Positions 7,601-37,797 of a stretch of DNA of 37,913 nucleotides are shown one piece after another. The notes beneath the pieces are model-generated. The model was not told the DNA's origin. It worked only from the letters and a program-made list of their open reading frames with translations, and made no database searches. The position numbers and the translations under genes were made by a program. Numbering within the stretch: position 1 is the first letter of the stretch; each line of letters opens with the position of its first letter. The stretch comes from Methanoregula sp. (lineage in GTDB: Archaea > Halobacteriota > Methanomicrobia > Methanomicrobiales > Methanospirillaceae): positions 1-37,913 of the forward strand of contig JAKLGZ010000007.1 of the NCBI GenBank assembly GCA_022710385.1, given 5' to 3'.

Positions 7601-8778
7601 CTGAACCATCCTTGTGTCCGGAGACAGATTTTTACCAGGAGGAGCATGGTCGGGACTTCGATCAGGACTCCCACCACGGTCGCAAGGGCTGCCCCTGAAG
7701 CTATCCCGAAGAGGATCGTGGCCGTGGCGATGGCGACCTCGAAGTGGTTCGAGGCCCCGATCATCGCCGAGGGTGCGGCATCCTCATAGGTGAGGTGGAT
7801 TTTCTTCGCGAGGAAATACCCGATCGTGAAGATGAGCATCGTCTGGAGGAAGAGGGGGATTGCGATCCAGACGATCGTCAGCGGCTGGGAGAGGATTACC
7901 TCCCCTTTGAAGGTGAAGAGGAGGACCAGTGTCGAAAGTAAGGCGATGATGGTGACCGGGGTCAGGTAGTGGACGAACTTCCGGTTGAACCACTCCTCGC
8001 CCTTCGCCCTAATGATCAGTCTTCTCGAAATATACCCGGCTACAAGCGGGAGAGCTACATAGACCGCTATCGAGAGGGCAAGCGCCTGCCAGGGGACCGG
8101 GAGCTGGCCGATCCCGAGCAGGAAGCCCCCGAGCGGTCCGTACAAGAGGAGCATGGTGAGCGAGTTGATGGCTACCATCACGAGGGTGTGCCCGTCGTTG
8201 CCCTTCGCCAGGTATCCCCATACCAGGACCATGGCGGTGCACGGAGCGATCCCAAGAAGGATGCACCCGGCTAGGTAGCTCCGCCAGAGCGGGATTTCCA
8301 ACATCTTGATGCCATCCACCATGACCACGGTCCCGTCCCCGTAGGGCGCTCCAACCGGGAGGTCCAGGCCGAAGGGCATCTTTACGAGGTCAACTGCCTC
8401 CGGCCCGATGAACCCGATGAAGACATAGCCGAGGAAGAAGAGGGCGATGGCATACATGGTGAAGGGCTTGATGGCCCAGTTGACAAACAGGGTGAGGGCG
8501 ACTGGCTTGATGTTCTTCCCAGCCTTCAGGACTTCCGCAAAGTCGATCTTCACCATGATGGGGTACATCATGAAGAAGAGGGCGATGGCGATGGGGAGGG
8601 AGATGATCGGGGCTTCGCCCGAGTAGATGGCAAGGGAATCGAGGTAGCGTGCAAGCTCCGGGGCGTAGTTCCCAAGCAGGATGCCGATCCCGATGCAGAG
8701 GAGGACCCATACCGTCAGGTACCGTTCGAACCAGCCGAGGCCTTTTGGTTCCTTCGTGACGCAGGACTCACCGGGCAT
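7597..8778 (-). CDS. acr3: ACR3-family arsenite efflux permease
   Basis: A 393-residue membrane protein with about ten transmembrane helices, the usual size for Acr3. It expels arsenite (and in some members antimonite) using the membrane potential. The diagnostic segment [20 protein letters not shown] contains the conserved cysteine of helix 4, and [18 protein letters not shown] is the conserved late-helix segment. The ATG at 8778 follows GGGGAG and overlaps the upstream DGC gene by 11 bases. It is the central transporter of the operon and the best evidence that the whole locus handles arsenic. Confidence 0.95.
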
Positions 8779-9190
8779 GGGTCTCCCCGGGTCTTCCCCT
8801 TCCTTCCCAGGCAGCAGAGACGACGAGTTCCACCTCGTCTTCGGTGAAGTTCTTCTCGTACAACTTGTCGATTCCGAGACCGGTGATCACGATATGCTGG
8901 GCCGGGGTCACTCCCTGGGCATTGGCTATCTTCGCCCCGCATGTCATGGGGCAGCCATCGATGAGCACCACCTCATCGGCCTCAGCAATACGCTTTTTCA
9001 GACCCGGATCCCCGGATCCCAGGAGTGCGATGCATGTCGCCACGCCATACCCTTCTTCCCCGAGATGGAGGGCAGCCGCGTTGGAGATAAGACCGACGTT
9101 CGCCGTCCCTGCACAGGGAAAGATGATCCGTCTCTTCCCACCAGCGAGTGCCGAGGTGTCACCGCATGCACACTCTGGTCTTGACGCCAT
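8768..9190 (-). CDS. DGC-domain putative zinc-binding protein (second copy)
   Basis: A 140-residue DGC-family protein with Asp-Gly-Cys in [12 protein letters not shown], an N-terminal CACGD and [17 protein letters not shown], the canonical start of the family. Cysteines in all three places could form a metal or metalloid site. It is much closer to the family consensus than the copy at 5950-6366. It sits between the redox thioredoxin-like gene and acr3, overlapping the latter. AAGGGATGAG precedes the ATG at 9190. Function is unknown; a role as As/Se-responsive carrier is inference. Confidence 0.82.
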
Positions 9191-9193
9191 GGC

Positions 9194-9427
9194 TCATCCC
9201 TTCAGGATCTCCTTGAGTTCTTTTATATCTGCGACCCGGCCTGAGACTTTCATCTCCCCATCGACCGCAAGGGCTGGTGTGAGCATGACTCCGCGGGTGA
9301 TGATCTCGCTGATGTCGTCGACCTTCACAATCTCTGCAGTGATGCCAAGTTCCTTTACGGCAATCTCAACGTTCTTGAACAGCCGCTTGCATTTCATGCA
9401 GCCGGTACCGAGCACTTCGATCTTCAT
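9194..9427 (-). CDS. Small redox-active thioredoxin-family protein
   Basis: A 77-residue thioredoxin/glutaredoxin-fold protein of the short archaeal type, which lacks the extra N-terminal elements of full thioredoxin. It has the C10-x-x-C13 pair in GTGCMKCK and the cis-proline loop LTPALAVDG. Such proteins commonly accompany ArsP-type permeases and probably pass electrons or hold the metalloid. The ATG at 9427 gives the family-typical MKIEVLG start; a GTG at 9436 overlapping the preceding stop is an alternative. Confidence 0.88.
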   Translation of the reverse strand: MKIEVLGTGCMKCKRLFKNVEIAVKELGITAEIVKVDDISEIITRGVMLTPALAVDGEMKVSGRVADIKELKEILKG

Positions 9428-9432
9428 ATGAT

Positions 9433-9696
9433 TCACCCACCCTTATACTTCTGATATTCCTGTAAAAGCGCGATCCGGTATTTCTCTTCTGCTGATGCAG
9501 GGATATAATTGTAGATCTTCAATCTCTTCAGGAGTTCTCTCCCGGTTTCCTTTTCGTCCGGAAGTTCCATCTCCCTCACTTCGGCAAGGATATGATCGAG
9601 CATGCTGATCCCGACCACGATACCCCCAACATCGACCTGCCGGATACGACGGAGGGCTTCCGCCTCGCAGCAGGGCTTCTCATCCACTGGTGCCAC
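9433..9696 (-). CDS. Small conserved protein overlapping the permease gene
   Basis: An 87-residue frame starting at GTG 9696 inside the last codons of the permease gene (17-base overlap, different frame) and ending directly at the thioredoxin-like gene. Its sequence is protein-like: an N-terminal Cys pair (EKPCCEAEALRRIRQV), VGGIVVGISMLDHILAEVREM and a basic, Tyr-rich C terminus (IYNYIPASAEEKYRIALLQ). I do not recognise a named family with certainty. The translational overlap and the position suggest an accessory subunit of the permease, or a regulator. A second GTG at 9687 is an alternative start. Confidence 0.68.
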   Translation of the reverse strand: MAPVDEKPCCEAEALRRIRQVDVGGIVVGISMLDHILAEVREMELPDEKETGRELLKRLKIYNYIPASAEEKYRIALLQEYQKYKGG

Positions 9697-10783
9697 ATCC
9701 CGGGATCCCGAGGTACGGGAAGTAGTTGCCGAACACGAACCCGGCGAAGGTCGAGAAGCCGACCACCAGGAGAGCAAACACCAGCGTCTTTTTTCCTCCC
9801 ATGATGCGGTACAAGACGAGCAGACTTGGGAGACTGACCGCGGGCCCTGCGAGGAGGAGGGATAGGGCCGGACCGCCAGCCATGACCCCCGAGGTGTATC
9901 CGAACGTGCCACCGATGATGGGGACCTCGAGGAGCGTGGGCATATAGAGGAGGGCGCCGACCACTGATGCCAGGAGGCAGGCCCCGAGCGAGTTGTCACC
10001 GAAGAACGGTTTGAAGGTCTCTGGCGGGAGGAAGAAGGCAATGATGCCCACTATGAATGTCCCGGCAATGAGGATCGGGAAGATCTTCTTGGTGAGGTCC
10101 CAGATCTCGTATCCCCACTCGGTTACTTCGTCGCGCTCGAAGTAGTAGATGAGCAGCAGGGCGACTCCCAGGGTCAGGACATACACGATCGAGAGACGGA
10201 CAGAGAATGGAATGAGCCCGGAAGCTCCGATCACCAGGATGAGCACAAGGAAGACAAAGAAGAGAGGTACCACCCATTTCGGCCGGGTGGATTCTTCGCT
10301 GCCGGCCACAAACCCCTTGCCCGCTGCGGTCACGGCCTCATCGTAAGACTGGAAGATGGTGGCCATGAGGAGGCCGATGGCAATCGACATGGTGATGGCG
10401 AAAAATGCCCGGGCAAACCCGATGTCCCATCCAAGAACGCTGGCAGTATAGATGATGGCGAGGATGTTGATGGCAGGCCCTGCATAGAGGAAGGTGGTGG
10501 CAGGACCGATCCCGCTCCCTTTCTTCAGGATGCCGGCAAACATCGGCAGGATGGTGCAGGAGCAGACGGCAAGGACGACTCCGGAGACAGATGCAACCCC
10601 GTAACTGACGGACTTTTTGGCATCAGGGCTGAAGTACTTCAGGATCGCCTCTTTCTTGATGAAGACCGCGATCGCACCTGCGATAAAGAAGGCAGGGACG
10701 AGGCAGGTGATGACGTGGGCAGCAAGATACTCGATGACTGCGTTCAGCCCGGAGAGCAGTGCTCCGGTGATGGCATCGGTCAT
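9680..10783 (-). CDS. arsP: ArsP/DUF318-type permease
   Basis: A 367-residue membrane protein with eight or more hydrophobic segments in two halves, belonging to the permease family that includes ArsP, an exporter of trivalent organoarsenicals. The conserved CSC motif is visible in VLAVCSCTILPMF, followed by GPATTFLYAGPAINILAI. The second half repeats the pattern with LLEVPIIGGTFGYTSGVMAGGPAL. The start at 10783 has a full AAGGAGGTGA ribosome binding site. It is the first gene of the minus-strand operon, directly downstream of the divergent arsR promoter region, so it should be induced by arsenic. Substrate (organic arsenic or another metalloid) is inferred. Confidence 0.85.
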   Translation of the reverse strand: MTDAITGALLSGLNAVIEYLAAHVITCLVPAFFIAGAIAVFIKKEAILKYFSPDAKKSVSYGVASVSGVVLAVCSCTILPMFAGILKKGSGIGPATTFLYAGPAINILAIIYTASVLGWDIGFARAFFAITMSIAIGLLMATIFQSYDEAVTAAGKGFVAGSEESTRPKWVVPLFFVFLVLILVIGASGLIPFSVRLSIVYVLTLGVALLLIYYFERDEVTEWGYEIWDLTKKIFPILIAGTFIVGIIAFFLPPETFKPFFGDNSLGACLLASVVGALLYMPTLLEVPIIGGTFGYTSGVMAGGPALSLLLAGPAVSLPSLLVLYRIMGGKKTLVFALLVVGFSTFAGFVFGNYFPYLGIPGCGTSG

Positions 10784-21709: not shown

Positions 21710-21856
21710 GGGTTTTCACGTTTTTCCTTGTTTGTCAACAATGTCGGTCGGGAAGCAGCGCCCTGGCTGTTTCGTCTGGTTCTCTGGCTGGCGTTTCGGC
21801 TCGCGGAATCTGTTTTCCCTGGATCCTTTGGCAGCCCTTTCAGGCTGTTTCAGGTA

Positions 21857-22182
21857 TGTAAGCCGGTGCACCAGCCGTCAACGTTGGCGTGAGAAGAGGG
21901 GGATTGGTGCGTTGGATGAGAGTATGAGAATCATCCGGTTCGATGATCCCTGTTCAGGGTACTGCACGACCGGCGGGTTCCGTATGATCCCGGCCAGCCC
22001 TTCCACGATAAGGGTGGTCCGGACGACGAAGGTGGTGAGCACTCGTTGTAAAAACGGTGGAGCGCCCATCTTCCGCGCCGTTGCGGCCATTCTCGTCAGG
22101 AATTCCCGATTCATTGGTGCAGGAGTAAGATTTGCGTGATTGGATATCAATTTGACGGAACCGGGAGGTTAGGGGAATGAAA
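21857..22182 (+). repeat. 326-base island repeat, copy 1
   Basis: A 326-base direct repeat shared without gaps with copy 2 at 24191-24516 and in part with copy 3 at 29858-30040. It starts TGTAAGCCGGTGCACCAGCC and ends AGGTTAGGGGAATG. It contains the palindromes GGTGCACC and CAACGTTG near the left end. Several frames are open on both strands; a minus-strand one (MNREFLTRMAA...) is protein-like but not clearly conserved. There are no matching terminal inverted repeats and no transposase. It marks the left edge of the defence cassettes. Confidence 0.85.
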
Positions 22183-22502: not shown

Positions 22503-23327
22503 ATGGACATGATAACGAAGAATGAGAGGGCACTTCTTTACCTGTTATCAAGGACATCACATCTGACCAGGATGAAACTGGTAAAAATGATGTTTCTCAT
22601 CTCGAAGGAGCAGAGTCTTTATGACTTTGTACCCTATCAGTACGGCCCGTTCTCATTCAAGTTATATCAAGACCTTCGTCATCTCGAGCGTGAGGGGCAT
22701 CTCACTCAAGTTGATGACGAGGTGAAATATTGTGATCGGATATTTCCCCAACCCGATTCCTTCATTCGGACTGCAATTGATTCTTGTATTGACCGTTTTG
22801 GCAGTTGCCATGAAAAGGATCTCATCGACTACGTATACCGGGCACATCCCGAGATGACCATCTTTTCCACTATAAAGCGATTGGAAAAGTATAATCGGGA
22901 CGAAACTGGTATCGTCACCATCGGATATGAGGGAAGGAATATCGACCGGTTCCTCTCTCTTCTCATCGAAAATAAAGTTGGAAAACTCATCGATGTGAGA
23001 AAAAATCCGTTCAGCATGAAATACGGATTTTCGAAGAACCAGCTCTCGGGGGCACTTGAAAAATTGGGAATTTCTTACCTGCATTTTCCTGATTTAGGTA
23101 TCGACAGTTACAAGCGACAGAACCTGACGAATGCCGGTTATACCAGCCTCTTTCTTCATTATGCACAGGAGCTTGAAGAGAAACAAGACCATCTTGCCAG
23201 AATTATATCGCTATCAAAGATTGAAAAGGTAGCGCTGATGTGTTTTGAGGCTCAGGCATCCGATTGTCACCGGGGTGTCATCGCCCAGCGGTTCAGGGAT
23301 GAAGGGCTCTGTGTGACAGACCTATGA
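22503..23327 (+). CDS. SocA/Panacea-like domain fused to DUF488
   Basis: A 274-residue two-domain protein. Residues 1-115 (MKLVKMMFLISKE, then YDFVPYQYGPFSFKLYQDLR) resemble the N-terminal helical domain of SocA/Panacea-type antitoxins. Residues 136-274 are DUF488, with GYEG (141-144), DVRKNPFS (164-171) and the CFEA...CHR motif (247-256), whose two cysteines and histidine suggest a metal or catalytic site. DUF488 has no settled function, although it occurs in nucleic-acid and defence contexts. A TATA-like CATATTTAAG lies about 30 bases before the ATG. The stop overlaps the next gene by ATGA. Confidence 0.75.
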   Translation: MDMITKNERALLYLLSRTSHLTRMKLVKMMFLISKEQSLYDFVPYQYGPFSFKLYQDLRHLEREGHLTQVDDEVKYCDRIFPQPDSFIRTAIDSCIDRFGSCHEKDLIDYVYRAHPEMTIFSTIKRLEKYNRDETGIVTIGYEGRNIDRFLSLLIENKVGKLIDVRKNPFSMKYGFSKNQLSGALEKLGISYLHFPDLGIDSYKRQNLTNAGYTSLFLHYAQELEEKQDHLARIISLSKIEKVALMCFEAQASDCHRGVIAQRFRDEGLCVTDL

Positions 23328-24157
23328 CCTGGGTGAAAAAGAAGATCCTGGTAGCCGTGAAGGCCTACCCGGAGAAGAGCAAGAAACATGGGACCACGGT
23401 ATGCACTGCCGGGATTACCGATGATGGTGACTGGATCCGATTGTATCCCATGCCCTACTCGTCATTTCTCGGCACCAATAAGATCCATCGCTATGACTGG
23501 ATTGAAGTGGAGTGTAAAAAAGTTACAGATGAAAAATTAAACAGGAAGGAAAGTTACAGGGTTCGCGACGGTTCCGTGAGAATCATCGATCGATCGCTTT
23601 CAAAAGGAAAAATCCAGGGGAAAGTACCGTGGGCAGAGAGGAATGCGAGAATCCTGCCGAAACTTGACCCTTCACTTGAATACCTTGAAGAAAAATATCG
23701 TGAAGACAAAACATCTCTTGGTCTCATCAAACCCGTTGATGTGATGGATTTTTTCACCCGGGAGGAGCTCCTCCAACCACCGGAACCGAAGGAATTCCAA
23801 CGATCTCTCGATAACCAGATCATTCCCATTGTCGATACTATCCCTCACATCTTCGCCTATAAATTCACATGTTCCGGATGTCGCGAGGGGAAAACACATG
23901 ATATCATGTGTGAAGATTGGGAGTTGTTCGAATCCTACCGCTCATGGTGGAAGAACTATCCCGATGTAAAACTCCTGTGGATGAAGCTTCATGAGAAATT
24001 CTTCGATTTCATGAAGAAGAGCGATTTATACTTCTATATGGGTATGTACTCGCAAATGCCGACCTGGCTCATAATCGGGTTGTATTATCCTCCGAAGGAA
24101 ACGGTCATTCCTTTAGAAAAACCTGTCACCCTTCATAAGTGGTTAGGACAAGGTTGA
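23324..24157 (+). CDS. Unknown protein with Zn-knuckle, partner of the DUF488 fusion
   Basis: A 277-residue protein of no family I can name with certainty. The first 80 residues form a beta-rich domain (KILVAVKAYPEKSKKHG, then DWIRLYPMPYSSF) that recalls small RNA- or base-binding folds. C183-x2-C186-x5-H192-x3-C196 (FTCSGCREGKTHDIMCEDWE) looks like a zinc knuckle. The last third is aromatic-rich and probably helical. It begins at ATG 23324 inside the stop of the DUF488 gene, so the two are translated together and probably form one complex. The pair stands alone between copies 1 and 2 of the 326-base repeat. Confidence 0.75.
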   Translation: MTWVKKKILVAVKAYPEKSKKHGTTVCTAGITDDGDWIRLYPMPYSSFLGTNKIHRYDWIEVECKKVTDEKLNRKESYRVRDGSVRIIDRSLSKGKIQGKVPWAERNARILPKLDPSLEYLEEKYREDKTSLGLIKPVDVMDFFTREELLQPPEPKEFQRSLDNQIIPIVDTIPHIFAYKFTCSGCREGKTHDIMCEDWELFESYRSWWKNYPDVKLLWMKLHEKFFDFMKKSDLYFYMGMYSQMPTWLIIGLYYPPKETVIPLEKPVTLHKWLGQG

Positions 24158-24190
24158 CCCCTTTTCACCCTTCCTATTTCATCACTGGTT

Positions 24191-24516
24191 TGTAAGCCGG
24201 TGCACCAGCCATCAACGTTGGCGTGAGAAGAGGGGTATTGGTGTGTTGGATAACGGTGAGGGAAGCATCCGATTCGATTATCCCTGTTCAGGGTACTGCA
24301 TGACCGGCGGGTTCCGGATGATCCCGGCCAGCCCTTCCACGACAAGGGTGGTCCGGACGACGAAGGTGGTGAGCAATCTTTGTAAAAACGGTGGAGCGCC
24401 CCTCATCCGCGCCATTGCGGCCATTCTCGTCAGGAATTCCCGATTCATTGGTGCAGGAGTAAGATTTGCGTGATTGGATATCAATTTGAAGGAACCGGGA
24501 GGTTAGGGGAATGAAA
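24191..24516 (+). repeat. 326-base island repeat, copy 2
   Basis: Same length and orientation as copy 1 (21857-22182) with scattered substitutions, densest in the part around 24240-24275. It ends in AGGTTAGGGGAATGAAA. It separates the DUF488 cassette from the AT-rich ATPase-nuclease cassette. Confidence 0.85.
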
Positions 24517-24850: not shown

Positions 24851-26857
24851 ATGATGTCCGATAAAACCGTTCCAGATAATACTTTTATATATTCCTTATT
24901 AGACTCCTACATTAATGAGGCAAAAAAAGCCCCCAAACTCTTCAGAGATTTAGCAAAAGTAGAGCAATATATTGCTGAAAGTTATAAATCACGATCTTTT
25001 ATTGAAATTATCCAAAATGCTGATGATGCCGGCGCCTCAGAAATATTAGTTACTGAATACGAAGATGGATTATTAATAGCAAATAACGGGAAGCCATTCT
25101 CAGTTGATGATGTCGAAGCAATATGTCGAAGCGGATCTTCACAAAAAATTCGAGGAAAAACTATCGGTTATCGAGGAATTGGATTTAAATCGACTGCAAA
25201 TTTAGCAAAGTCGATATCAATCATAAGTGGCGACTTTCATTTTAATTTCAATAAAGAGAAAACGATCAAAAAATTAGCTGAGATAGGTATTGATGATGTC
25301 CCATTAATTCGAATTCCCCATATTATCTCTAACGATGATTATTTTAATATTAAAAAGAAGATCAGCCCCTATTTAAACAATTTTTCAACTTTTTTTCTAT
25401 TTACTGGTATTGATAATCGAGTCGTTACAGAGGAATTTGCAGATTTTGATTCTTCTTCACTGTTGTTTTTACGTAATATTGTTGAATTAACAATTTCTTT
25501 AGGAAATACTAAGCGTAAAATAATAATCGATAAGAAAAAGGAGAACTCATTTTTTTCATATAAAATTCAGGAAAATGATGAATCTAAACAGTGGCTTGTT
25601 ATTAATTCTGAACCAACAAAAATCGATACTATCGCCTTTAAATTAATGAATGATACAATTCTCCCTGCATCGATATCAGAATCTGTTATTCATGCCTTTA
25701 CTCCCACGAATGAATTTTCTGGAGCTTTTTTTAAAATAAATGGAGATTTTAGCACAGATCCTTCTAGAAAAACAATCGATTGTGATGAGATGAGTAATTC
25801 GTCATATACAAACGCAATTGATCTTTTAGGGTCAACATTGATAAAATGCCTCGAGGGGGATATTCAAATAAAAGGCATATTTTCTCCATTTGTCAATATA
25901 AAAGGAGTGGAAAATTCAAAATTTAAACGTTATTTCAAAAAGAGACTCAATAAATTATTTAATGAGAGAAAAATTCAATATAACAACCAAATTATTCAAA
26001 TTTCGAATTTTAGATTAAAACCAGAATGGCTTAATATTGATGATTATAACCAGGTTTGCCATTCTGGAATAGTTCCTCTTTCGCAAAAAACTATGGTTGA
26101 CTATCCAGAAATTACACAACTGTTCAAGGACTTTGATGTACAAGTATTATCACTAAATGATCTAATTGAACGATTAAACATCTCAGATTTGAAAAATACT
26201 GGATTGGCACAAATTTTTGCACGAATTATCAAACAATATTCGTTTGATTGGTCCGAAGATAAAATATCATCTGTCCAATCGCTACAATTATTCCCTGTAG
26301 ACACCCAGAGAAAAAGGATTACAGAATTATCCGATTATAATGATATAGACTCAGATTTTAGGGATTTTGTGTTAAAACTTGTAGATAAAAAAGATTTAGA
26401 CCAATTTTTATTCAAATTTAATAAATCTGGTCTAACAACACCCCCTCCTCATGATGGGACATCAAAACCCCCACGGAGAGCAATTATTAAATGGAAAAGA
26501 GCAGAAAAGAATGTTGAAGAATTCTTAAAATTATTTCCAACTATAATTTCAGTAAACGATGTCAGTCGAGTGAATATTGGTTATGATCTAGAAGTAATAT
26601 TTTCCAATTCTGATAAAATATATGTCGAAGTAAAATCATTAAAAAATTTTAATGAGCCATTTGGAATTACAAATAATGAATATGCTGAAGCTCATCGACG
26701 AGGTGATAGATATTATTTAGCTTTAATCGTGATGGAGCCAGAAATATTAATAAAATTTATTCAAAATCCTCTAAATATACTCCAATTTGATAGAATTTGT
26801 GAAAGATGGTCATGGAGATGTGAGGATTATAAAGATTATTTAACAGATAAAATATAA
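24851..26857 (+). CDS. Sacsin/HSP90-type ATPase fused to a DUF3883 nuclease domain
   Basis: A 668-residue AT-rich gene. The N-terminal GHKL ATPase shows E52 with QNADDAGA (55-62), NNGKPFS (78-84) and the lid motif GYRGIGFKS (107-115), as in sacsin-type proteins. The C-terminal domain (about 560-668) is DUF3883, a PD-(D/E)XK-like fold: GYDLEVIF supplies the Asp, and YVEVKS the ExK. The middle is unassigned. ATPase-DUF3883 proteins recur in defence islands and are thought to cut or sense invading DNA. ATG 24851/24854 follow GAGGAA; an upstream TTG frame is rejected. The downstream gene starts 25 bases later and is probably its partner. Confidence 0.85.
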   Translation: MMSDKTVPDNTFIYSLLDSYINEAKKAPKLFRDLAKVEQYIAESYKSRSFIEIIQNADDAGASEILVTEYEDGLLIANNGKPFSVDDVEAICRSGSSQKIRGKTIGYRGIGFKSTANLAKSISIISGDFHFNFNKEKTIKKLAEIGIDDVPLIRIPHIISNDDYFNIKKKISPYLNNFSTFFLFTGIDNRVVTEEFADFDSSSLLFLRNIVELTISLGNTKRKIIIDKKKENSFFSYKIQENDESKQWLVINSEPTKIDTIAFKLMNDTILPASISESVIHAFTPTNEFSGAFFKINGDFSTDPSRKTIDCDEMSNSSYTNAIDLLGSTLIKCLEGDIQIKGIFSPFVNIKGVENSKFKRYFKKRLNKLFNERKIQYNNQIIQISNFRLKPEWLNIDDYNQVCHSGIVPLSQKTMVDYPEITQLFKDFDVQVLSLNDLIERLNISDLKNTGLAQIFARIIKQYSFDWSEDKISSVQSLQLFPVDTQRKRITELSDYNDIDSDFRDFVLKLVDKKDLDQFLFKFNKSGLTTPPPHDGTSKPPRRAIIKWKRAEKNVEEFLKLFPTIISVNDVSRVNIGYDLEVIFSNSDKIYVEVKSLKNFNEPFGITNNEYAEAHRRGDRYYLALIVMEPEILIKFIQNPLNILQFDRICERWSWRCEDYKDYLTDKI

Positions 26858-26882
26858 ACCGGTATTTGTAATAATCATAATT

Positions 26883-27965
26883 ATGGCAGTTACTCTAATT
26901 TTCTACGAAAAACCAAAAACAGCCTCTAAACAAAGGGCAATTGAATTGGTATCCGACATACCTTATTTTTATAAAGATGGTAAATATATAATAAAATCCG
27001 AATATCTTACACCGCAATTTAAAAAGGCAGTATTATTAGCGGGTAATTGGAAAACAACTGAACTTATAATAAATGAGAAAGAGATAGATATCAAAGAATT
27101 TCAACGAATAGCCAGTTGTTTTAACGGTAGATTTTGTAACGGTATTTGTCATCTTTTTTTTGGAAGAATTTATAACGAGATTTCACATGCAATCAAGTGG
27201 GGAGGTGATTTGGATTACATAATGGATAGTATAAAAAATTGTCCATTTATTGTACACATTGAAAACGATAAATACAGATTTGACCGAGAAGTGTTCAATC
27301 AATATTTCTCTGATGCCAGTGATCTTTTACAATTTTGCGATTATTTCAATGAAGAGTCGACATTGGAAAAATTTAATGAAATTCCTGAACATTTCAAAAT
27401 TTCACCCCACGCCATCAATGATGATTATTTTGGTGATGCTGATGATTATGAGGAGGACTCCGATGACGATGAATCTAATAAAATTAAAAATCATGACACC
27501 AGTAATTTGGCAATTGACTATTGTATAAACAATTCAATAATATTTGCATGTACAACAAAAAAGAGCCAAGATAATATTATTTTTAAAATAAAACCCCTGT
27601 CATTTGAGCCGGTCGAATTATCTCAAATTGATAATCAAGATAAGATAGAAGATTTCGAAGAAAACGGATTTTTGTATTTATTGAAGTGTGAAATTATTAA
27701 CCTTTCCAAATCCGAGATTAGTTTCTATGATATTAAACGTACTTTAGTAATGGCCGACGAGGATGATTATATCTATACCATTTATTATGACTATCAATTA
27801 TATAATCACACAAAATTTAGTGAAAAAACCGGGTTAAATAAAACAGAAGAAACACATTTCCGGCCAAAAATGAAAAAAACTGTTATATTACCCGTCTTTC
27901 TACCAGATGACGAGAATCAGAAATATTACCTTGCTGTGATGGATGGGAAGATTAAGGAAGTATAA
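26883..27965 (+). CDS. Unknown protein, partner of the ATPase-DUF3883 protein
   Basis: A 360-residue AT-rich gene of unknown family. Residues 1-190 are mixed alpha/beta (VTLIFYEKPKTASKQRAIEL near the start). A highly acidic linker, rich in Asp/Glu (about 179-200), follows. The last 150 residues look like a beta-sandwich (FLYLLKCEIINLSKSEIS, then YTIYYDYQLYNH) similar to DUF4352-like immunoglobulin folds, but lack a lipobox or signal. Composition matches the upstream gene, 25 bases away, so both probably came together. A role as specificity or sensor subunit is inference. Confidence 0.7.
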   Translation: MAVTLIFYEKPKTASKQRAIELVSDIPYFYKDGKYIIKSEYLTPQFKKAVLLAGNWKTTELIINEKEIDIKEFQRIASCFNGRFCNGICHLFFGRIYNEISHAIKWGGDLDYIMDSIKNCPFIVHIENDKYRFDREVFNQYFSDASDLLQFCDYFNEESTLEKFNEIPEHFKISPHAINDDYFGDADDYEEDSDDDESNKIKNHDTSNLAIDYCINNSIIFACTTKKSQDNIIFKIKPLSFEPVELSQIDNQDKIEDFEENGFLYLLKCEIINLSKSEISFYDIKRTLVMADEDDYIYTIYYDYQLYNHTKFSEKTGLNKTEETHFRPKMKKTVILPVFLPDDENQKYYLAVMDGKIKEV

Positions 27966-28511: not shown

Positions 28512-29441
28512 TCACTGCTCCGTTTCATTCTTAGCATCGATCTGCTGATTGTCAGACGAACTTTGAGGTTTCATTAGCATCATTGTCAGATGTGTAAAAA
28601 TCAAAGATAAGATTAATATTAGTCCTGCATTGAAGGGAATTAAAAAAATATTAGTGTTATAATTAAAAATATCAAAAACACCTCCAATAAATGGCAATAT
28701 TAGTATAATAAGAATTAAACTAAATGAAAATTTAAAAAGAGAGGATAACAAAGGACGAATTTTATTATAAATAATAGAACTTAAGAAATATCCCAAAACT
28801 ATTGGTATATATGCAAGCGATAGCAGTAAAAATAAAATTCCACTTCCGGTGAAAAAGGGGATATTCTGTTGAAATTGAATTACGGGGTCAAACCATGTGA
28901 TAATTAGAAGTAAAATTCCTACCGATCCCCAACCAAGAAAAATTTTTGTCCCAAAAGACGTAATATCTTCTCTTTGCCCTTTAAGGACATTTCGTATTAA
29001 TAAAATCAATCCCCAAAACATAAAATCAAACGACATTACAAACAGATATGAAGCTAAAAAATCTTCATGTAATGTGAATACCGTCATTATTTCTTCACCG
29101 GTAATGATACCAAAAATCAATGCGGCTGAAACAAAACCAAAAAAAGCTAATAATAATGCTAAAGGGATATATTTTTCAACACAATCTGGATTTTTTAGGT
29201 CACACTTAAACAATTCTGTTTTCTGAAAAAGAAGAAAAATTGAAGCAAATGCAAAACCTGCAAGAACTGCACTGATATTGGCAAAGATGCGTCCTGCTTC
29301 AATGGCATTAAAATATGGTCTATTTTGAGACGTTAAATTTGTAGATTCTTCATTTCCATCAAGAACATTCGCACCTTCGTTAATTCCAATAATTAGAAGT
29401 GAAAGTAGTATTATCAATGCTAGGAGTTTAAAGTGACCCAT
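28512..29441 (-). CDS. Multi-spanning membrane protein of unknown family
   Basis: A 309-residue integral membrane protein with about eight transmembrane helices (FKLLALIILLSLLIIGIN first, then IFANISAVLAGFAFASIFLL). A short extracytoplasmic or loop segment with Asn/Ser/Thr follows the first helix. The C-terminal tail is Gln/Ser-rich and polar. It is AT-rich and convergent with the ATPase-nuclease pair. It could be the membrane effector of a defence system, or an unrelated cargo; no functional motif is visible. Confidence 0.72.
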   Translation of the reverse strand: MGHFKLLALIILLSLLIIGINEGANVLDGNEESTNLTSQNRPYFNAIEAGRIFANISAVLAGFAFASIFLLFQKTELFKCDLKNPDCVEKYIPLALLLAFFGFVSAALIFGIITGEEIMTVFTLHEDFLASYLFVMSFDFMFWGLILLIRNVLKGQREDITSFGTKIFLGWGSVGILLLIITWFDPVIQFQQNIPFFTGSGILFLLLSLAYIPIVLGYFLSSIIYNKIRPLLSSLFKFSFSLILIILILPFIGGVFDIFNYNTNIFLIPFNAGLILILSLIFTHLTMMLMKPQSSSDNQQIDAKNETEQ

Positions 29442-29857
29442 AAATTTTAATTATCAACATAGGGAATAAAAAAATATTTTTAATTGTTATAGATTTGTAT
29501 TTTACCGACTGTCGGCAGTATGGCAGTGGTTGAATGAATCTACGGATTGATCCAGAACGAGCCAAGAGTGAAATAATTTCTTTTTTGAATTGTTTATGTC
29601 CTCTACTCAGAGGAGAGGTAACTCCATTGGATAACAGCCATTTTGTTTTAAAATATTAATGGGAGTAAAAATTTAATCACAACGGCAATACTGATTGTGA
29701 TGCTTATCCCAGATATTTCGATTTTCATATGAAAATAGTATAATTATAATATTATAAATTATTATTGAATGTTCTAATCACAACATCAAATAAGCATCAA
29801 CTGCCGCGTTTTGACAGGTGATCCTGAGTTGTGGGATCTGCCGACAACTTGACAGAG
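29442..29857. other. AT-rich intergenic stretch
   Basis: About 400 AT-rich bases between the membrane gene and the truncated repeat copy 3. No protein-coding or RNA gene is supported. The region left of the repeat junction (29450-29500) should hold the promoter of the membrane gene read on the minus strand. Confidence 0.4.
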
Positions 29858-30040
29858 CCCCTTCCACGATGAGGGTGGTCCGGACGACGAAGGTGGTGAG
29901 CACTCGTTGTAAAAACGGTGGAGCGCCCCTCATCCGCGCCATTGCGGCCAGTCTCGTCAGGAATTCCCGATTCATTGGTGCAGGAGTAAGATTTGCGTGA
30001 TTGGATATGAATTTGACGGAACCAGGAGGTTAGGGGAATG
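29858..30040 (+). repeat. 326-base island repeat, copy 3 (truncated)
   Basis: The right 183 bases of the repeat, beginning in CCCTTCCACGATGAGGG and ending AGGTTAGGGGAATG, same orientation as copies 1 and 2. The first 143 bases are replaced by AT-rich sequence. It precedes the endonuclease cassette by about 60 bases. Confidence 0.85.
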
Positions 30041-30102: not shown

Positions 30103-31332
30103 ATGGATAAGACGCTGTTAACGGAGAATATTATAGATCATTTGAAAAAAGCTCAGTTTAATAGCGAAAATCCATCTGATTTCGAAAGGGCAATCTCTGA
30201 TGCATTTCATTTTCTTGGATTTGAATCACAGCTTATTGGTGGGAGTGGAGACACGGATGTAATTTTAAACGCCAATATAGGAAAATTATCCTACAAAATC
30301 ACTGTTGATGGAAAGACAAGTAAGTCCGGAAAAATTAGCGATCGACAAATTGACTGGTTTTCTTTGAGAGATCATAAAAATAAAAATAAGGCAGATGCGA
30401 TCATAGTCGTTGGTCATGAATTTGCAGGGGGGAATCTCGAAACAAGGGCAAATGAAAATAACGTTGGACTTTTACAAGCTGAAAATCTTGTTCGTCTAAT
30501 TGATTCTCATGCAAAAAATCCGTTCTCATTAACGGAATTACGTGAGCTATTGATACAACGGGGTGACCTTTCTTCCGAAATAGATGATCTGATTCAACGA
30601 CATTCAGTGAGATGGGAATTCATTGGGCATATTCAAACACTTATCAATGAAATGCAAACAATTCAAGACGGGAAACTTGGATATTTCACCCTTCAAAGCC
30701 TCGTCGCAAGGGAAAAAATTGAAACCACAGAGATTGAGCCAGAGGAGATCGAATCAATAATTAATCTGTTACAATTGCCTTTCATTAATGCAATAGCTTT
30801 GTACTCTAAAGATCAATATATCCTTACGATAGGGACAGAAGATCTGTCCAATATATTCTATCAAATTGCAAAAACGATAAAAGGAAAACAAATTGACGCA
30901 CCAACAGAAGAAAAACATTTAAAAAACCTCACACAATCCGAATCCGTTAGAAAATTAGGATCGAAATACTATCAATGGGAAATCAGAAAATCATCGGTTG
31001 TTGCCTGGGCTAGACGAGAGCAACCATATATCCATCATTGCCCTGTTGAACATTTTAGAACGATAATTAGTACAATTCTATCCATTCTGTCTACTAACAA
31101 CGTTATTAGCGTTGAAGCCGTAAGCGAAGAACTTCATGGAAAAGACATAGGATTTGAAAGACTGTACAAGGGCAAACCGGAGGAATATAAAATTTTCATG
31201 GCCCTGGGAATTCTTGAAGTGGAAAATTTAATCAAATGGACTGGTGCAAAAAGACCAATTGAATATAGTCTTGCCGTCCCGATAGAAAAAATTCGGGAGT
31301 GGTGTGATTTAAAGATTAAAAAAATCGATTAA
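30103..31332 (+). CDS. Restriction-endonuclease-fold protein
   Basis: A 409-residue AT-rich gene. Residues 20-110 form a PD-(D/E)XK nuclease: E28 (DFERAISDAFHFLGFES), GGSGDTDVIL with D50/D52 and the strand KITVDGK (D69, K71). The remaining 300 residues, helix-rich, have no clear match and may recognise the target or a partner. A TATA-like AAATATATCC about 30 bases before the ATG suggests a short leader. The next gene follows after 19 bases with its own GAGGAAGAGAG site, so this looks like a two-gene defence cassette. Confidence 0.78.
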   Translation: MDKTLLTENIIDHLKKAQFNSENPSDFERAISDAFHFLGFESQLIGGSGDTDVILNANIGKLSYKITVDGKTSKSGKISDRQIDWFSLRDHKNKNKADAIIVVGHEFAGGNLETRANENNVGLLQAENLVRLIDSHAKNPFSLTELRELLIQRGDLSSEIDDLIQRHSVRWEFIGHIQTLINEMQTIQDGKLGYFTLQSLVAREKIETTEIEPEEIESIINLLQLPFINAIALYSKDQYILTIGTEDLSNIFYQIAKTIKGKQIDAPTEEKHLKNLTQSESVRKLGSKYYQWEIRKSSVVAWARREQPYIHHCPVEHFRTIISTILSILSTNNVISVEAVSEELHGKDIGFERLYKGKPEEYKIFMALGILEVENLIKWTGAKRPIEYSLAVPIEKIREWCDLKIKKID

Positions 31333-31351
31333 TAGATATTGAGGAAGAGAG

Positions 31352-31966
31352 ATGGATGAAGATATTTTCGAGGTATTCCTACAAAAAAATGGATTTCTTC
31401 TTGAGATTATCGGTATTTTTGCGGCAATATCAGTGCTTTTTTCGTCAAATATTTTAGATACTAATCAATATTTACAAGTCGTGAGTCTGGCGAGTCTCCT
31501 TGTTATATTGCTTTTATCAAGCATCGTAATATTAAATTTATTCAAATCTCTCCCCAAAATAGATTCAAAGATTATAGAGGGGAGTAAAACACAATTTCAA
31601 CACTTAAAGGATAGTTCTAAAATAGTTTCCTTTATGATTTTTGGTATTGCCTTGTTTTTAATAAATACGGGTATTCTTATCTATATTCTTACAACGCCTT
31701 CCATGAATGAATTTTTTTGGATTATTTTGAGTATGATAATTGCCGCCGTTTATATCATTGGATTTGTTTATCTCCCTATTCATGAGAGTTTATGTTCAAA
31801 TACGCTGAAAGGAAAAATTATTGCATCTTTGATCTATTTAGTTTTCATAATTCTCGTTATAGATTACCTGATTCATTATTTAACAAACAATCTGACCCCA
31901 TCAGTATTAATTGTAGGACTAATTTCAATCTATGGCATTTATGATGCATGGAAGGTTCGAAAATAA
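31352..31966 (+). CDS. Membrane protein, partner of the endonuclease-fold protein
   Basis: A 204-residue AT-rich membrane protein with about five to six hydrophobic segments (LEIIGIFAAISVLFSSNIL first; a pair near 35-65; a hairpin near 93-145; a pair near 160-195). A polar loop around residues 65-90 carries many Lys/Ser/Gln residues and probably faces the cytoplasm. It starts 19 bases after the nuclease gene. Nuclease plus membrane protein could place recognition at the membrane or couple nuclease activation to a pore; this is inference. Confidence 0.7.
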   Translation: MDEDIFEVFLQKNGFLLEIIGIFAAISVLFSSNILDTNQYLQVVSLASLLVILLLSSIVILNLFKSLPKIDSKIIEGSKTQFQHLKDSSKIVSFMIFGIALFLINTGILIYILTTPSMNEFFWIILSMIIAAVYIIGFVYLPIHESLCSNTLKGKIIASLIYLVFIILVIDYLIHYLTNNLTPSVLIVGLISIYGIYDAWKVRK

Positions 31967-32266: not shown

Positions 32267-34567
32267 GTGGCAACCACTGATAAAGGATCACTAAGCGAAC
32301 GCGATATCTGCACCCAATTTATCACCCCCTCACTCCAAACCGCTGGCTGGAACCTGGCCACCCAGGTCCGTGAAGAAGTCAATATCACCAAAGGCCAGGT
32401 TTTGGTTCAGGGAGCAAAAGCGACTCGTGGTCGTCGAAAATTTGCAGATTATGTTCTCTATTACAAACAAAACATTCCCTTGGCGGTCATTGAAGCAAAA
32501 GACAACAACCACGATATTGGGGACGGAATGCAGCAGGCACTCGAATATGCCAATATGCTTGATGTTCCCTTCGTGTTTAGCTCGAACGGCGACGGATATC
32601 TCATGCATGATCGGACCCACTCCTCAACGAAGGTGGAGCGGGAACTTAGACTTGATGAATTCCCTTCACCAGACGTCCTCTGGCATCGCTATTGCGGATG
32701 GAGAGGATTGGGCGCCGATCAGACCCGATTCATAGGTCAGGATTACTATTTCGACAGCTCCGGCAAGATGCCCCGGTACTATCAGACTGCGGCGATTAAC
32801 CGGACTACTGAAGCGATTGTGAAGGGTCAGAACCGCATTCTCCTTGTCATGGCAACAGGAACCGGTAAGACATATACAGCGTTCCAAATCATCTGGCGAC
32901 TCTGGAAATCTGGCATGAAGAAGCGGATTCTCTTCCTTGCCGACAGGAACATCCTCGTTGATCAGGCACGGACAAATGATTTCAAACCGTTTGGAAACGC
33001 GATGACCAAGATTCAGAACCGGTCCGTGGATAAAAGCTATGAGGTCTATCTCGCTCTCTACCAGGCAGTCACCGGTGATGAAGAATGGAAAGATATCTAC
33101 AAGCAGTTCTCTCCTGATTTTTTCGACCTGGTTGTTGTTGATGAATGTCACCGGGGGAGTGCTGCTGAGGATTCAGCCTGGCGTGAAGTCCTGGAATACT
33201 TCTCCTCTGCGACCCAGATAGGGATGACCGCCACTCCAAAGGAGACGAAATATATCTCAAATATTCATTACTTCGGCGAGCCGGTCTATACCTATTCACT
33301 GAGACAAGGGATTGAAGACGGATTCCTTGCACCATTCCGGGTGATCCGGGTCGATATCGACAAGGATCTTGAAGGATGGCGTCCCGAACCTGGTCAACAT
33401 GATAAATACGGGAAAGTGATTGAGTACCGGGAGTATGACCGGAAAGACTACGACAGAGAGCTGGTGCTTGAGAAGCGTACAGAGCTTGTTGCCAGCCGAA
33501 TTGCAGATTTTCTCCGAGCGACGGACCCCTACGACAAGACGATTGTATTCTGTGAGAATATTAATCACGCCGAACGAATGCGCCAGACCCTTGTGAATGA
33601 ACTTCCGGAGTTTGTCGAAAAGAGCCATCGGTACATCATGCGGATCACCGGGGATTCTATCGACGGGAAGGCAGAACTTGATAATTTCATCATGCCGGAG
33701 AGCAGGTATCCAGTGATTGCCACCACTTCCCGGCTCCTTGGGACCGGAGTGGATGTCCAGACCTGCAAACTGATCGTCATCGACAAGAATATCGAGTCCA
33801 TGTCGGAATTCAAACAGATGATCGGAAGGGGCACCCGGATTAATGAGGACTTCGGGAAGAACTATTTCACCATCATGGATTTCCGGAAGGCTACGGAACA
33901 TTTCTCTGACCCGGACTGGGATGGCCCTCCACTTCCTGATGAGGATTTCCAGCCGGGGCATGAGCGTCCGGAGAGGAAGGAGTATCCAGAATCGGGCAGA
34001 AAACGATATGTCGTCAATGATGTCGAGGTATCCGTTGTTGCCGAGCGGGTCCAGTACTACGGGGCTGATGGCAGGCTCATTACCGAGTCCCTGAAGGATT
34101 ATACGAAGAAGGCGGTGAGCAAGCAATACGCATCCCTTGACCAGTTCTTTAAATTCTGGACAGATGCCGAGAGGAAAATGGCTATTGTGCAGGAGCTTGA
34201 AGAGCGAGGGGTCCTCTTTGAGGCACTCGCCGAGGAGGTCGGTGGGGAGTACGATCCCTTCGACCTCATCTGCCATGTCGTATTTGACCAGCCTCCGATA
34301 ACCCGGAAAGAGCGGGCCAATAAGGTCAAAAAAACCTCTTATTTTTCGCGGTACGGTGAGAAAGCACGAGCCGTGCTGACGGCCATTCTTGAGAAATATG
34401 CCGACGAAGGGCTCACAGATGTGGAGAGTCTCGAAGTGCTCAGGGTCGATCCCATCAGTAAGATCGGGACACCGGTCGAGATCCTGAACGATGTATTTCT
34501 CGGAAAGGACAACTACCTCTCAGCGATCCGGAGGCTTGAGACCTGCCTCTACACGGCTGAATGTTAA
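32267..34567 (+). CDS. hsdR: Type I restriction enzyme, R (motor and nuclease) subunit
   Basis: A 766-residue HsdR. The N-terminal nuclease shows D61 and E76-x-K78 in DYVLYYKQNIPLAVIEAKD. The superfamily-2 DNA translocase follows: Walker A MATGTGKT (195-202), DECH (292-295) and GMTATPKE. The C-terminal region (YFSRYGEKARAVLTAILEKY and following) matches the EcoEI/EcoAI-type (type IB) tail that docks onto HsdM-HsdS. The start is GTG 32267 after CGGGGGAA. All motifs are intact, so cutting should occur after ATP-driven translocation. It is the first gene of the operon, 51 bases before hsdM. Confidence 0.94.
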   Translation: MATTDKGSLSERDICTQFITPSLQTAGWNLATQVREEVNITKGQVLVQGAKATRGRRKFADYVLYYKQNIPLAVIEAKDNNHDIGDGMQQALEYANMLDVPFVFSSNGDGYLMHDRTHSSTKVERELRLDEFPSPDVLWHRYCGWRGLGADQTRFIGQDYYFDSSGKMPRYYQTAAINRTTEAIVKGQNRILLVMATGTGKTYTAFQIIWRLWKSGMKKRILFLADRNILVDQARTNDFKPFGNAMTKIQNRSVDKSYEVYLALYQAVTGDEEWKDIYKQFSPDFFDLVVVDECHRGSAAEDSAWREVLEYFSSATQIGMTATPKETKYISNIHYFGEPVYTYSLRQGIEDGFLAPFRVIRVDIDKDLEGWRPEPGQHDKYGKVIEYREYDRKDYDRELVLEKRTELVASRIADFLRATDPYDKTIVFCENINHAERMRQTLVNELPEFVEKSHRYIMRITGDSIDGKAELDNFIMPESRYPVIATTSRLLGTGVDVQTCKLIVIDKNIESMSEFKQMIGRGTRINEDFGKNYFTIMDFRKATEHFSDPDWDGPPLPDEDFQPGHERPERKEYPESGRKRYVVNDVEVSVVAERVQYYGADGRLITESLKDYTKKAVSKQYASLDQFFKFWTDAERKMAIVQELEERGVLFEALAEEVGGEYDPFDLICHVVFDQPPITRKERANKVKKTSYFSRYGEKARAVLTAILEKYADEGLTDVESLEVLRVDPISKIGTPVEILNDVFLGKDNYLSAIRRLETCLYTAEC

Positions 34568-34618
34568 ACATCTATGGTCTGTGAGCGCCTATCTGTCATC
34601 TAGAGCGGGAGGGCAACC

Positions 34619-36079
34619 GTGTCAATCAGCACAAAGATCAAGGCAATCCAGGATATCATGCGGAAGGACGCCGGTGTGGACGGCGATGCCCAGCGTATCA
34701 GCCAGATCGGCTGGATGTTGTTCCTGAAGATTTTTGACGACAGGGAACGCGAATACGAGCTCCTTGACGAGAAATACACCTCTCCAATCCCTGACCAGCT
34801 CCGATGGCGAAACTGGGCCGGAAACGAGGAGGGGATCACCGGGGATGCCCTGCTGGACTTCGTGAACAACAACCTCTTCCCGACCCTGAAGGAGCTCCAG
34901 CCGCCTCTCGGGGGTTCCGGTGTGGAGTATGTCATCCGCAATGTGTTTGCCGACTCCTACAACTACATGAAGAACGGGACACTGATCCGACAGGTGGCAA
35001 ATAAGATCAATGAGATCGACTTCAACAGTTCAAAAGACCGTCACCTGTTCGGCGAGATCTACGAGAAGATCCTCAAGGATCTGCAGAGCGCCGGGAACGC
35101 CGGTGAATACTACACGCCCCGGGCAGTAACCCAATTTATGGTGGATATGGTGAATCCCCAACTGGGAGAAGTCGTCCTCGATCCTGCCTGTGGAACTGGA
35201 GGATTCCTTACCTGCACGATTGACAACATCCGGTCGTCGCAGGTGAAGTCAGTGGAGGACGAGCAGCTCCTCCAGTCCTCGATCATCGGCATCGAGAAGA
35301 AACCGCTCCCCCACCTCCTTTGCACAACGAACATGATGCTCCACGCGATCGATGTACCGGTGCAAATCCGCCACGACAACGCCCTCGCCCGCCCCCTGCG
35401 GGATTACGGACCACGGGACCGGGTAGACGTGGTGGTCACCAATCCCCCCTTCGGTGGCATGGAAGAGGACGGCATCGAGAGTAACTTCCCCTCCCCGTTC
35501 CAGACCCGTGAGACGGCCGATTTATTCCTGGTCCTCCTCATGCACATCCTCAAGGACGGTGGACGTGCAGCGATTGTCCTCCCGGACGGAACGCTCTTCG
35601 GCGAAGGCGTAAAGAGCCGTATTAAGGAAAAGCTGCTGGCGGAATGCAACCTCAATACCATCGTGCGGCTGCCGAATGGAGTCTTCGCCCCGTATACCGG
35701 GATTAAAACGAACCTGCTCTTCTTCGAGAAAGGCACGCCGACGAAAGAAATCTGGTACTATGAGCATCCGTACCCCGAGGGATACAAGTCATACTCAAAG
35801 ACGAAGCCGATCCAGATAGAGGAGTTTGCACCGGAGAAGGACTGGTGGACGAACCGGACAGAGAACGAGCATGCCTGGCGGGTGTCCGTGGATCAGGTGA
35901 TGGAGAGCGGGTATAATCTCGATATCAAGAATCCAAATGTTGCCCCAGACGATCACGGGGATCCAGCCGAATTGATCCGCGAGTATGAGTGGATCCGGGC
36001 GGAGGCAGCAGCAGCCCGAGAGGCTTTGAAGCGGGAACTGATGGCCTCGCTCGGGACACCTTCAGAGAGAAAAGCATGA
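34619..36079 (+). CDS. hsdM: Type I restriction-modification, M (methyltransferase) subunit
   Basis: A 486-residue HsdM that methylates adenine (N6) within the target. The AdoMet-binding motif I DPACGTGGF (188-196) and catalytic motif IV NPPFGG (275-280) are intact, and GEYYTPRAVTQFMVDMV precedes motif I as usual. The start is a GTG at 34619 with a GGGAGGG site. The ATGA overlap with hsdS couples the two subunits. It protects host DNA and forms the core of the restriction complex. Confidence 0.95.
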   Translation: MSISTKIKAIQDIMRKDAGVDGDAQRISQIGWMLFLKIFDDREREYELLDEKYTSPIPDQLRWRNWAGNEEGITGDALLDFVNNNLFPTLKELQPPLGGSGVEYVIRNVFADSYNYMKNGTLIRQVANKINEIDFNSSKDRHLFGEIYEKILKDLQSAGNAGEYYTPRAVTQFMVDMVNPQLGEVVLDPACGTGGFLTCTIDNIRSSQVKSVEDEQLLQSSIIGIEKKPLPHLLCTTNMMLHAIDVPVQIRHDNALARPLRDYGPRDRVDVVVTNPPFGGMEEDGIESNFPSPFQTRETADLFLVLLMHILKDGGRAAIVLPDGTLFGEGVKSRIKEKLLAECNLNTIVRLPNGVFAPYTGIKTNLLFFEKGTPTKEIWYYEHPYPEGYKSYSKTKPIQIEEFAPEKDWWTNRTENEHAWRVSVDQVMESGYNLDIKNPNVAPDDHGDPAELIREYEWIRAEAAAAREALKRELMASLGTPSERKA

Positions 36080-37797
36080 GCACTGACCTTCTCTTCGAGC
36101 ATTTCGACACGTTCGCGACTGCACCAGATGGGATTGCACGTCTGCGGGAAATGATTTTACAGCTTGCGGTGCAGGGGAAACTTGGGACGCAGGATGAGAA
36201 TGATGAACCGGCGAGTGTGCTGCTGGAGAGACTAAAAAAATCAGAAAAAATAAACAAAAAATGTAAATCGACCAAAATTGATGAAAGCCAAGAGGAAGAT
36301 TTCCCTTATTTAATTCCAAAGAATTGGATTTGGATAAAATTTAATGAAATCGTTATCGATGTTCAATCCGGATTCGCTTGTGGTGAGAGAGATTCCCGTG
36401 GAATTGTTCAACTCCGAATGAATAACATTAATCCTCGAGGAGATTTTATTTGGGATAAAATATTACGAGTGCCATTTGATGAGGTCCTCAAACAGAAGTA
36501 TGAATTGAAAAGTGGGGATGTTGTTTTTAATAATACAAATAGTCTTGAACTAGTTGGAAAAAGTGGATTATTCAAAGGTTTCACTGAGCCAATTGTTTAT
36601 AGCAATCATTTCACACGATTAAGATTCGATGAAAGTAGCATTGATCCTGCCTATGTAACTATTTGGCTACATTACCAATGGAATTCAAAAATTTTTGAAA
36701 AAATTTGCAATAAATGGATCGGTCAGGCAGCGGTAAATGGCACCAAACTTCTAACTTTTTTATTCCCCCTCCCTCCAACTGCCGAACAGCACCGCATCGT
36801 TGAAAAAGTTGACCGGCTCATGTCCCTCTGCGATGAACTCGAAGTCAAGCAGCAGCGAAAGAGGGCGGGCTGCCTGAAACTTGGAAACGCGAGCCTTGCG
36901 GGATTGCAGAATGCGGAGAGCCCGGAGGAGTTCGAGCGGTTATGGGCGCAGGTGTGTGATGCGTTCGAATTGATCCTGGATTGCCCGGAGAATGTGGATA
37001 TACTAAGGCAGACGATTTTGCAGCTGGCAGTGCAGGGGCGGTTGGTGCGACAGGATCCAGATGATGAGCCGGGGATTACATTAATTGAAAAGATCAGGAG
37101 AGAGAGAAAGCAACAAGTGAAAGGTAGGAAAATCGAATTTCAACAACCACTAGCCTCTATAAAAGAAAAGAAAATAACATACTCAATACCCGCGACTTGG
37201 ATATGGATTAGATTAGGAGAGACCATAGAATCGATGGCAAATGGCATTTATAAACCCGAAATTTTCTATTCCAATGATGGCATTGCATGTCTTAGAATGT
37301 ACAATATTAATTCCGGAGAAATCAATTTCAAAAACTTAAAAAAGATGGAATTAACCGATCGCGAAATTGACCAATATCTTCTAAAAAAAGGCGACTTACT
37401 AGTTAATCGCGTTAATAGCAGGGAACTTGTTGGAAAAGCGGCAGTTATCCCAGATCTTCAAGAACCAATGATATTTGAAAGTAAAAATATTCGAGTACGC
37501 TTTAATAATCATTTGATTCTACCCGATTTTGTGAATATTTTATTTCAAACGAAAGACGTTTTGCAATCCTGGCAAGGGAAGGCCAAGCAAACCTGCGGTC
37601 AAGCTTCAGTCAGTCAGCCACAAATTGCTGAGATTTATACGCCCCTACCACCACTTGCAGAGCAGTATCGTATCGTAGAGAAAGTTAAAACAATGATGGT
37701 TTTGCTTGATAAATTGGAAAAACGATTGAAAGAAGGGTTTAATATTCAAAATCGCCTCGCAGAAGCATTTGTCATAGATATTGATTATTTAAATTAG
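36076..37797 (+). CDS. hsdS: Type I restriction-modification, S (specificity) subunit
   Basis: A 573-residue HsdS that chooses the bipartite DNA target. Two target-recognition domains, about residues 53-230 and 337-520, each follow a conserved lead (LQLAVQGKLGTQDENDEP and LQLAVQGRLVRQDPDDEP). Each ends in the conserved hinge LPPxAEQxRIVEKV. The two halves are internal repeats. The conserved parts are GC-rich like hsdM, whereas both recognition domains (about 36230-36770 and 37080-37640) are strongly AT-rich, so they were probably swapped in from elsewhere. ATG 36076 lies in the hsdM stop. Confidence 0.93.
   Translation: MSTDLLFEHFDTFATAPDGIARLREMILQLAVQGKLGTQDENDEPASVLLERLKKSEKINKKCKSTKIDESQEEDFPYLIPKNWIWIKFNEIVIDVQSGFACGERDSRGIVQLRMNNINPRGDFIWDKILRVPFDEVLKQKYELKSGDVVFNNTNSLELVGKSGLFKGFTEPIVYSNHFTRLRFDESSIDPAYVTIWLHYQWNSKIFEKICNKWIGQAAVNGTKLLTFLFPLPPTAEQHRIVEKVDRLMSLCDELEVKQQRKRAGCLKLGNASLAGLQNAESPEEFERLWAQVCDAFELILDCPENVDILRQTILQLAVQGRLVRQDPDDEPGITLIEKIRRERKQQVKGRKIEFQQPLASIKEKKITYSIPATWIWIRLGETIESMANGIYKPEIFYSNDGIACLRMYNINSGEINFKNLKKMELTDREIDQYLLKKGDLLVNRVNSRELVGKAAVIPDLQEPMIFESKNIRVRFNNHLILPDFVNILFQTKDVLQSWQGKAKQTCGQASVSQPQIAEIYTPLPPLAEQYRIVEKVKTMMVLLDKLEKRLKEGFNIQNRLAEAFVIDIDYLN

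Follow-up and report, generated by a model that had tools for sequence, protein, structure and literature searches.

Locus 24851-27965 raises the question of whether a sacsin-type ATPase fused to a DUF3883 nuclease, and the protein encoded directly behind it, form one working unit, and what such a unit would do. The two genes lie in Methanoregula sp. on contig JAKLGZ010000007.1 (C165), the entire 37,913 nucleotides of which were analysed and are called the window here; the host genome is fragmented (1.7 Mb, 197 contigs, 74% complete). Both open reading frames are complete, lie on the forward strand and are separated by 25 nt. We consider it probable that they encode a compact two-component nuclease system directed against invaders (phages or plasmids), a VcSduA-like relative of Tiamat in which the partner is a dedicated subunit.

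The first gene (24851-26857, + strand) encodes a compact Tiamat-like protein of 668 aa, a sacsin-type GHKL ATPase with a C-terminal DUF3883 nuclease. It starts with the ATG at 24851, an in-frame TTG at 24800 being an alternative, and its stop codon ends at 26857. The ATP-binding region comprises residues 41-128 (24971-25234, + strand) and is matched by Pfam SACS (2.7e-11) and by the NCBIfam model for the sacsin N-terminal ATP-binding domain (6e-21). The PD-(D/E)XK nuclease domain comprises residues 560-627 (26528-26731, + strand) and is matched by Pfam NOV_C/DUF3883 (6.4e-12; 45.8 bits against a curated cut-off of 22.1), with the D...ExK residues present. The initial annotation had described the ATPase and nuclease motifs as intact, and alignment bore this out: E52-x3-N56-x2-D59, G106-x-R108-G109-x-G111 and D579...E593-x-K595 are invariant in 12 aligned members, the relatives being 30-43% identical to the window protein. 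One nuance concerns GHKL motif II, where Asn replaces the usual Asp (N78-N-G80); N78 is invariant in the family, and nucleotide use could differ because of this exchange. The predicted nucleotide-driven nuclease, also proposed initially, is well supported by the conserved motifs, and the DNA sensing suggested along with it would be a putative function. DUF3883 has been named as a novel REase domain (PMC3710099). For one pair of related loci (L021/L022), dN/dS was estimated at ~0.13 for the ATPase and ~0.11 for its accessory gene (class B, see below), values that show purifying selection on both genes.

Relatives were gathered with the ATPase sequence alone as query. A one-genome-per-species scan yielded 14 loci, spread over Bacteroidota, Bacillota, Hydrogenedentota, Verrucomicrobiota and Nitrospirota, and two further loci were found on a Planococcus plasmid (L002) and on a phage contig (L031). 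A search of Bacilli, the class of L020, gave four more (L061-L064) after the accessory rule described below had been formed. The short family is rare and patchy, with 0 to 4 other genomes per sample of 395-399. Neither the 60 host relatives searched nor any other of 393 genomes sampled from the host phylum contained a full-length homologue.

Annotation of the surrounding genes shows a defence and mobile-element context. The window itself carries a candidate defence pair, PDC-M19A/B (22503-24157), and a Type I R-M set (32267-37797). At 30103-31966 lie a protein with an Mrr catalytic domain and, behind it, a small membrane protein that matches no family; the two are possibly another two-gene defence cassette. 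Among the relatives, Avs2 adjoins L019, and PDC-S37/Hhe-like and PDC-S26-like genes adjoin L020; further defence families are present among the 67 neighbours scanned. The phage copy (L031) lies shortly after tail and endolysin genes, and L002 is plasmid-borne. Such locations, on a plasmid, on a phage contig and in defence islands, together with the rare and patchy occurrence and the absence from the 60 host relatives, speak against a housekeeping DNA-repair or chaperone-type complex, a reading for which one could point to the chaperone and repair proteins among the relatives of sacsin and MutL (PMC3710099, PMC2292703) and which we regard as very improbable.

Composition was a less useful guide. 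The initial annotation had taken the matching AT-rich composition of the two genes (30.2% and 30.6% GC) as a sign of joint acquisition, but the neighbours at 28512-29441 and 30103-31966 are AT-rich as well, at 30-36% GC. Low GC marks an AT-rich block and not the ATPase-partner pair specifically, and composition as proof of joint acquisition was rejected because unrelated neighbours have the same composition. The neighbour at 28512-29441 (- strand) is an orphan multi-pass membrane protein in the same inter-repeat interval as the pair, with no family match in Pfam, PADLOC, NCBIfam or PHROGs. The left arm of the window carries an F420-dependent oxidoreductase-type gene, transporters and an RsgA-type GTPase.

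A repeat of ~300 bp is present three times in the host genome, always in this island (window 21853-22152, 24187-24486 and 29714-30013), where it flanks defence cassettes. Two copies are 93% identical, the third is ~95% identical over its 3' half, and a 93% match in one other genome of the genus ends at a contig edge. The repeat may be a mark of cassette boundaries or a source of misjoins. With repeats on both sides of the cassette, the cassette order is possibly affected by assembly; both genes of the pair lie inside one inter-repeat interval.

The partner (26883-27965, + strand) is a protein of 360 aa in three parts, all on the + strand: an N-terminal part (residues 1-179; 26883-27419), an acidic linker (residues 180-198; 27420-27476) and an Ig-like β-sandwich (residues 205-360; 27495-27962). 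Both of the features first recognised in it could be confirmed. The acidic linker is real, with 11 D/E among residues 181-200, and the C-terminal β-sandwich is predicted with confidence (block-mean pLDDT 74-95 over residues 205-360), while the N-terminal 200 aa are modelled at low confidence. That the partner belongs to no recognised family holds for the databases, there being no credible match in Pfam, NCBIfam, PADLOC or PHROGs; it does not hold for the fold, as the nearest Foldseek matches to the model are the DUF4352-type Ig sandwiches YxkC, YcdA and YjhA. On the stand-alone homologues described next, Pfam DUF4352 reaches 14-15 bits, under its curated cut-off of 25.9. According to the model, the resemblance of the C-terminus to DUF4352 is at fold level only. 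Solved relatives of DUF4352-type proteins include lipoproteins, whereas the window domain sits in a nuclease operon.

The partner has homologues of its residues 212-360 in stand-alone proteins of 152-155 aa (phmmer, E 1e-13 to 2e-19). Their genes come immediately after that of the orthologous ATPase in three Bacteroidota, namely Tamlana (L012), a Prolixibacteraceae genome (L013) and Subsaximicrobium (L014). These proteins of ~153 aa were termed class A, and the window partner was placed in the same class, as a member with an additional N-terminal part. The first copy begins 3-16 nt after the ATPase gene, and tandem diverged copies are present in L013 (two) and L014 (two). No class A protein was found in 395 further genomes from the order to which L012 belongs. 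Judged by homology, the conserved partner is the C-terminal domain only, and the N-terminus with the acidic linker is an addition seen solely in the window. This N-terminal addition had no relatives in any search, including those of plasmids, phages and viral_contigs. Scanning viral_contigs gave no match for the partner, for its N-terminus, for class A or for the first two-member ATPase alignment. Searches for the partner among plasmids and phages, and for accessories A and B among plasmids, were likewise negative. Because of its orphan N-terminus, the window partner may act otherwise than the stand-alone class A proteins.

Two other kinds of accessory were found beside short-form nucleases. 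Class B proteins (104-118 aa; L016, L017, L018 and L020-L023) are encoded upstream of the nuclease and are modelled as an Ig/FN3-like sandwich (pLDDT 90); L017 has a second, downstream copy fused to a HIRAN domain (E 4.7e-14). Class C proteins (L002, L019, L024 and L031) have ~210 aa and an acidic patch, are likewise encoded upstream, and overlap the nuclease gene in three of the four loci. The later-found loci fit the same rule, with class B domains in L061 and L064 (in the latter on both sides of the nuclease) and class C in L062 and L063. All 19 short-form loci whose required flanks are present (19 of 19) thus have an accessory of class A, B or C encoded in the same direction as the nuclease. 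L015 and L025 lie outside this count, since contig ends cut the side where class A would sit. In 11 whole genomes, all class A matches (5/5) and all class B matches (8/8) are at the ATPase locus.

Together with the class A genes beside orthologous ATPases, these whole-genome counts rule out chance adjacency of the pair and show the accessory-ATPase linkage to be exclusive. The initial annotation had joined the two genes into a set, with the partner expected to recur beside ATPase-DUF3883 homologues. Its C-terminal domain does so in L012, L013 and L014 and nowhere else in those genomes, and the linkage proved broader than had been proposed. In a maximum-likelihood ATPase tree, built from 19 rows of which two are short fragments and one (L014) is a composite of the two frames into which a frameshift divides the gene, accessory class needs two changes, the minimum; none of 200 shuffles was as low. 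The window ATPase groups with the class A loci with a support of 100/100. As far as sequence comparison goes, accessory class is shown to track the ATPase clade. Because the classes were defined on the first 15 loci, the unbiased test of this rule lies in the four later loci and the whole-genome counts. Profile comparisons gave no significant match between class A and class B, between either of these and a 165-aa Halosimplex gene (see below), between class A and the N-terminus of the L061 accessory, or between the partner N-terminus and class C; common descent of the accessory classes is therefore not claimed.

Several of these loci have irregular genes. The class C gene is broken into two reading frames in L019 (7354-7990) and in L063 (3488-4108); the position of the break differs between the two loci, and the nuclease ORF is intact in both. 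In L014 the nuclease (8010-10018) is broken by a frameshift, and both class A copies and a third gene are intact. In L061 (3664-4464) the class B domain is preceded, in the same protein, by an additional N-terminal domain with a β-rich-looking residue pattern.

Tight linkage and co-variation of accessory class with ATPase clade would also suit an antitoxin-like restraint, in which the nuclease is toxic by default and is freed once infection removes or disables the accessory. The upstream position of classes B and C, several of them overlapping the nuclease gene, is common in toxin-antitoxin pairs; class A, however, is encoded downstream, and the HIRAN fusion suits recognition better. For a strict antitoxin, a split class C gene beside an intact nuclease ORF, as in L019 and L063, should be lethal. 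We lean against a simple antitoxin on this account, sequencing error being a possible source of the splits, and consider the restraint reading unlikely.

Returning to the anti-invader nuclease with a dedicated subunit, its closest described relative is Tiamat, a one-gene system; Tiamat-type proteins appear in defence catalogues. All PADLOC TmtA profiles but one match the window protein, the best at 1.6e-55 over residues 4-469, with the best stretch at TmtA positions 4-493 of 1538, and a TmtA profile match was found in all 12 aligned members. The N-terminal sacsin/HSP90-like ATPase and the C-terminal DUF3883 nuclease are common to Tiamat and the window protein. Most TmtA profiles, however, have 1302-1782 aa, whereas the window protein has 668 aa and lacks the long middle region, and Tiamat is a single gene whereas the short family has an accessory gene at every one of the 19 loci that have the flanks needed. 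By homology the window protein is related to Tiamat, yet it is no Tiamat by length or gene count. This relation had been missed in the initial annotation, as had the exchange of accessory classes between clades. An Agrobacterium protein of 1406 aa has a TmtA match along most of its length (2.4e-280) and DUF3883 at its end. Of two relatives of intermediate length, the 810-aa Halosimplex protein has a small overlapping upstream gene (165 aa), and the 1006-aa Sulfuricurvum protein has an overlapping upstream gene with NERD and a topoisomerase-type zinc ribbon and is adjoined by a Qat system. No mechanism for Tiamat-type proteins was found in the literature searched.

L032-type operons, such as that of a relative of the host (L032:3-6670), divide the two modules between separate large proteins: a 1390-aa sacsin-type GHKL protein and, overlapping its start, a protein with DUF3883-like sequence. 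In the window both modules are joined in a single short protein, and the accessory is small. Giant GHKL proteins from related methanogens were also inspected, and were put aside as belonging to other systems.

We regard VcSduA as the best experimental analogue of the window nuclease. It joins a GHKL ATPase to a DUF4263 PD-(D/E)XK nuclease, is anti-phage in a manner that needs the ATPase and nuclease residues, and seems to act on the phage directly and spare the cell (PMC12137116); paraMORC3 proteins have a similar layout (PMC2292703). VcSduA, Shedu type I-D and paraMORC3 share with the window protein an N-terminal GHKL ATPase and a C-terminal PD-(D/E)XK nuclease. Their nuclease is DUF4263 and no accessory has been reported for them, whereas the window has DUF3883, assigned by Pfam to NOV_C and not to DUF4263, and an accessory; the feature set of paraMORC3 and Shedu type I-D also includes an S5 domain after the GHKL domain. 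The openly licensed literature searched yielded no paper dealing with the short DUF3883 family or with its accessories, and no report of phage or plasmid blocking by any short-family member.

For the window pair, we infer an ATP-driven dimer clamp in physical complex with a partner that has a sensor or licensing role. The sacsin-type GHKL module would form a dimer that closes when ATP binds, as in other GHKL clamps. The Ig-like β-sandwich of the partner would bind the ATPase protein and set when or where cutting happens, either as a sensor of some invader signal, be it a DNA structure, a DNA end or a phage product, or as a regulator of the clamp. The DUF3883 domains would then cut invader DNA; anti-phage activity is likewise putative. 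DNA is the presumed substrate, the sacsin family also including chaperone-like proteins.

The HIRAN fusion, the NERD/zinc-ribbon gene beside the Sulfuricurvum protein and the accessory duplication make us lean towards recognition of DNA or DNA ends. The fusion, this Sulfuricurvum-type arrangement and the tandem diverged accessories in L013 and L014 would equally suit a restriction-like enzyme, as would the direct action of VcSduA on phage with the cell spared (PMC12137116). The accessory would then be a substrate-recognition subunit reading a chemical or structural mark, and foreign DNA would be cut directly at entry, with no sensing of infection. We hold this reading as possible though short of even, since the set contains no methyltransferase, which leaves self/non-self discrimination unexplained, and neither sandwich has a demonstrated DNA-binding match.

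Starting again from the two-component defence nuclease, a wider and tentative proposal is that the short family is a modular immune family, with one ATP-driven nuclease core and clade-specific sensor subunits (two different Ig-like sandwiches, and the ~210-aa proteins as a third type) without detectable common origin. Each subunit would serve a different invader signal, and swap, duplication or fusion of the accessory would retarget the core. With accessory class and nuclease clade going together, cognate pairs are predicted to work and mismatched pairs to fail, which makes the sensor hypothesis directly testable. A Tiamat-like form of half size with a small dedicated partner is tractable, as ATPase clamp, nuclease and putative sensor are separable. 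Such a form would also give a β-sandwich of DUF4352 type a role in defence.

Extra operon genes with R-x4-H motifs (RNKVVH, RNLFVH) were observed at L012:10484-11242, L014:11025-11783 and L018:7019-7654. They recall HEPN RNases, without Pfam support, and the one in L018 sits between two class B copies.
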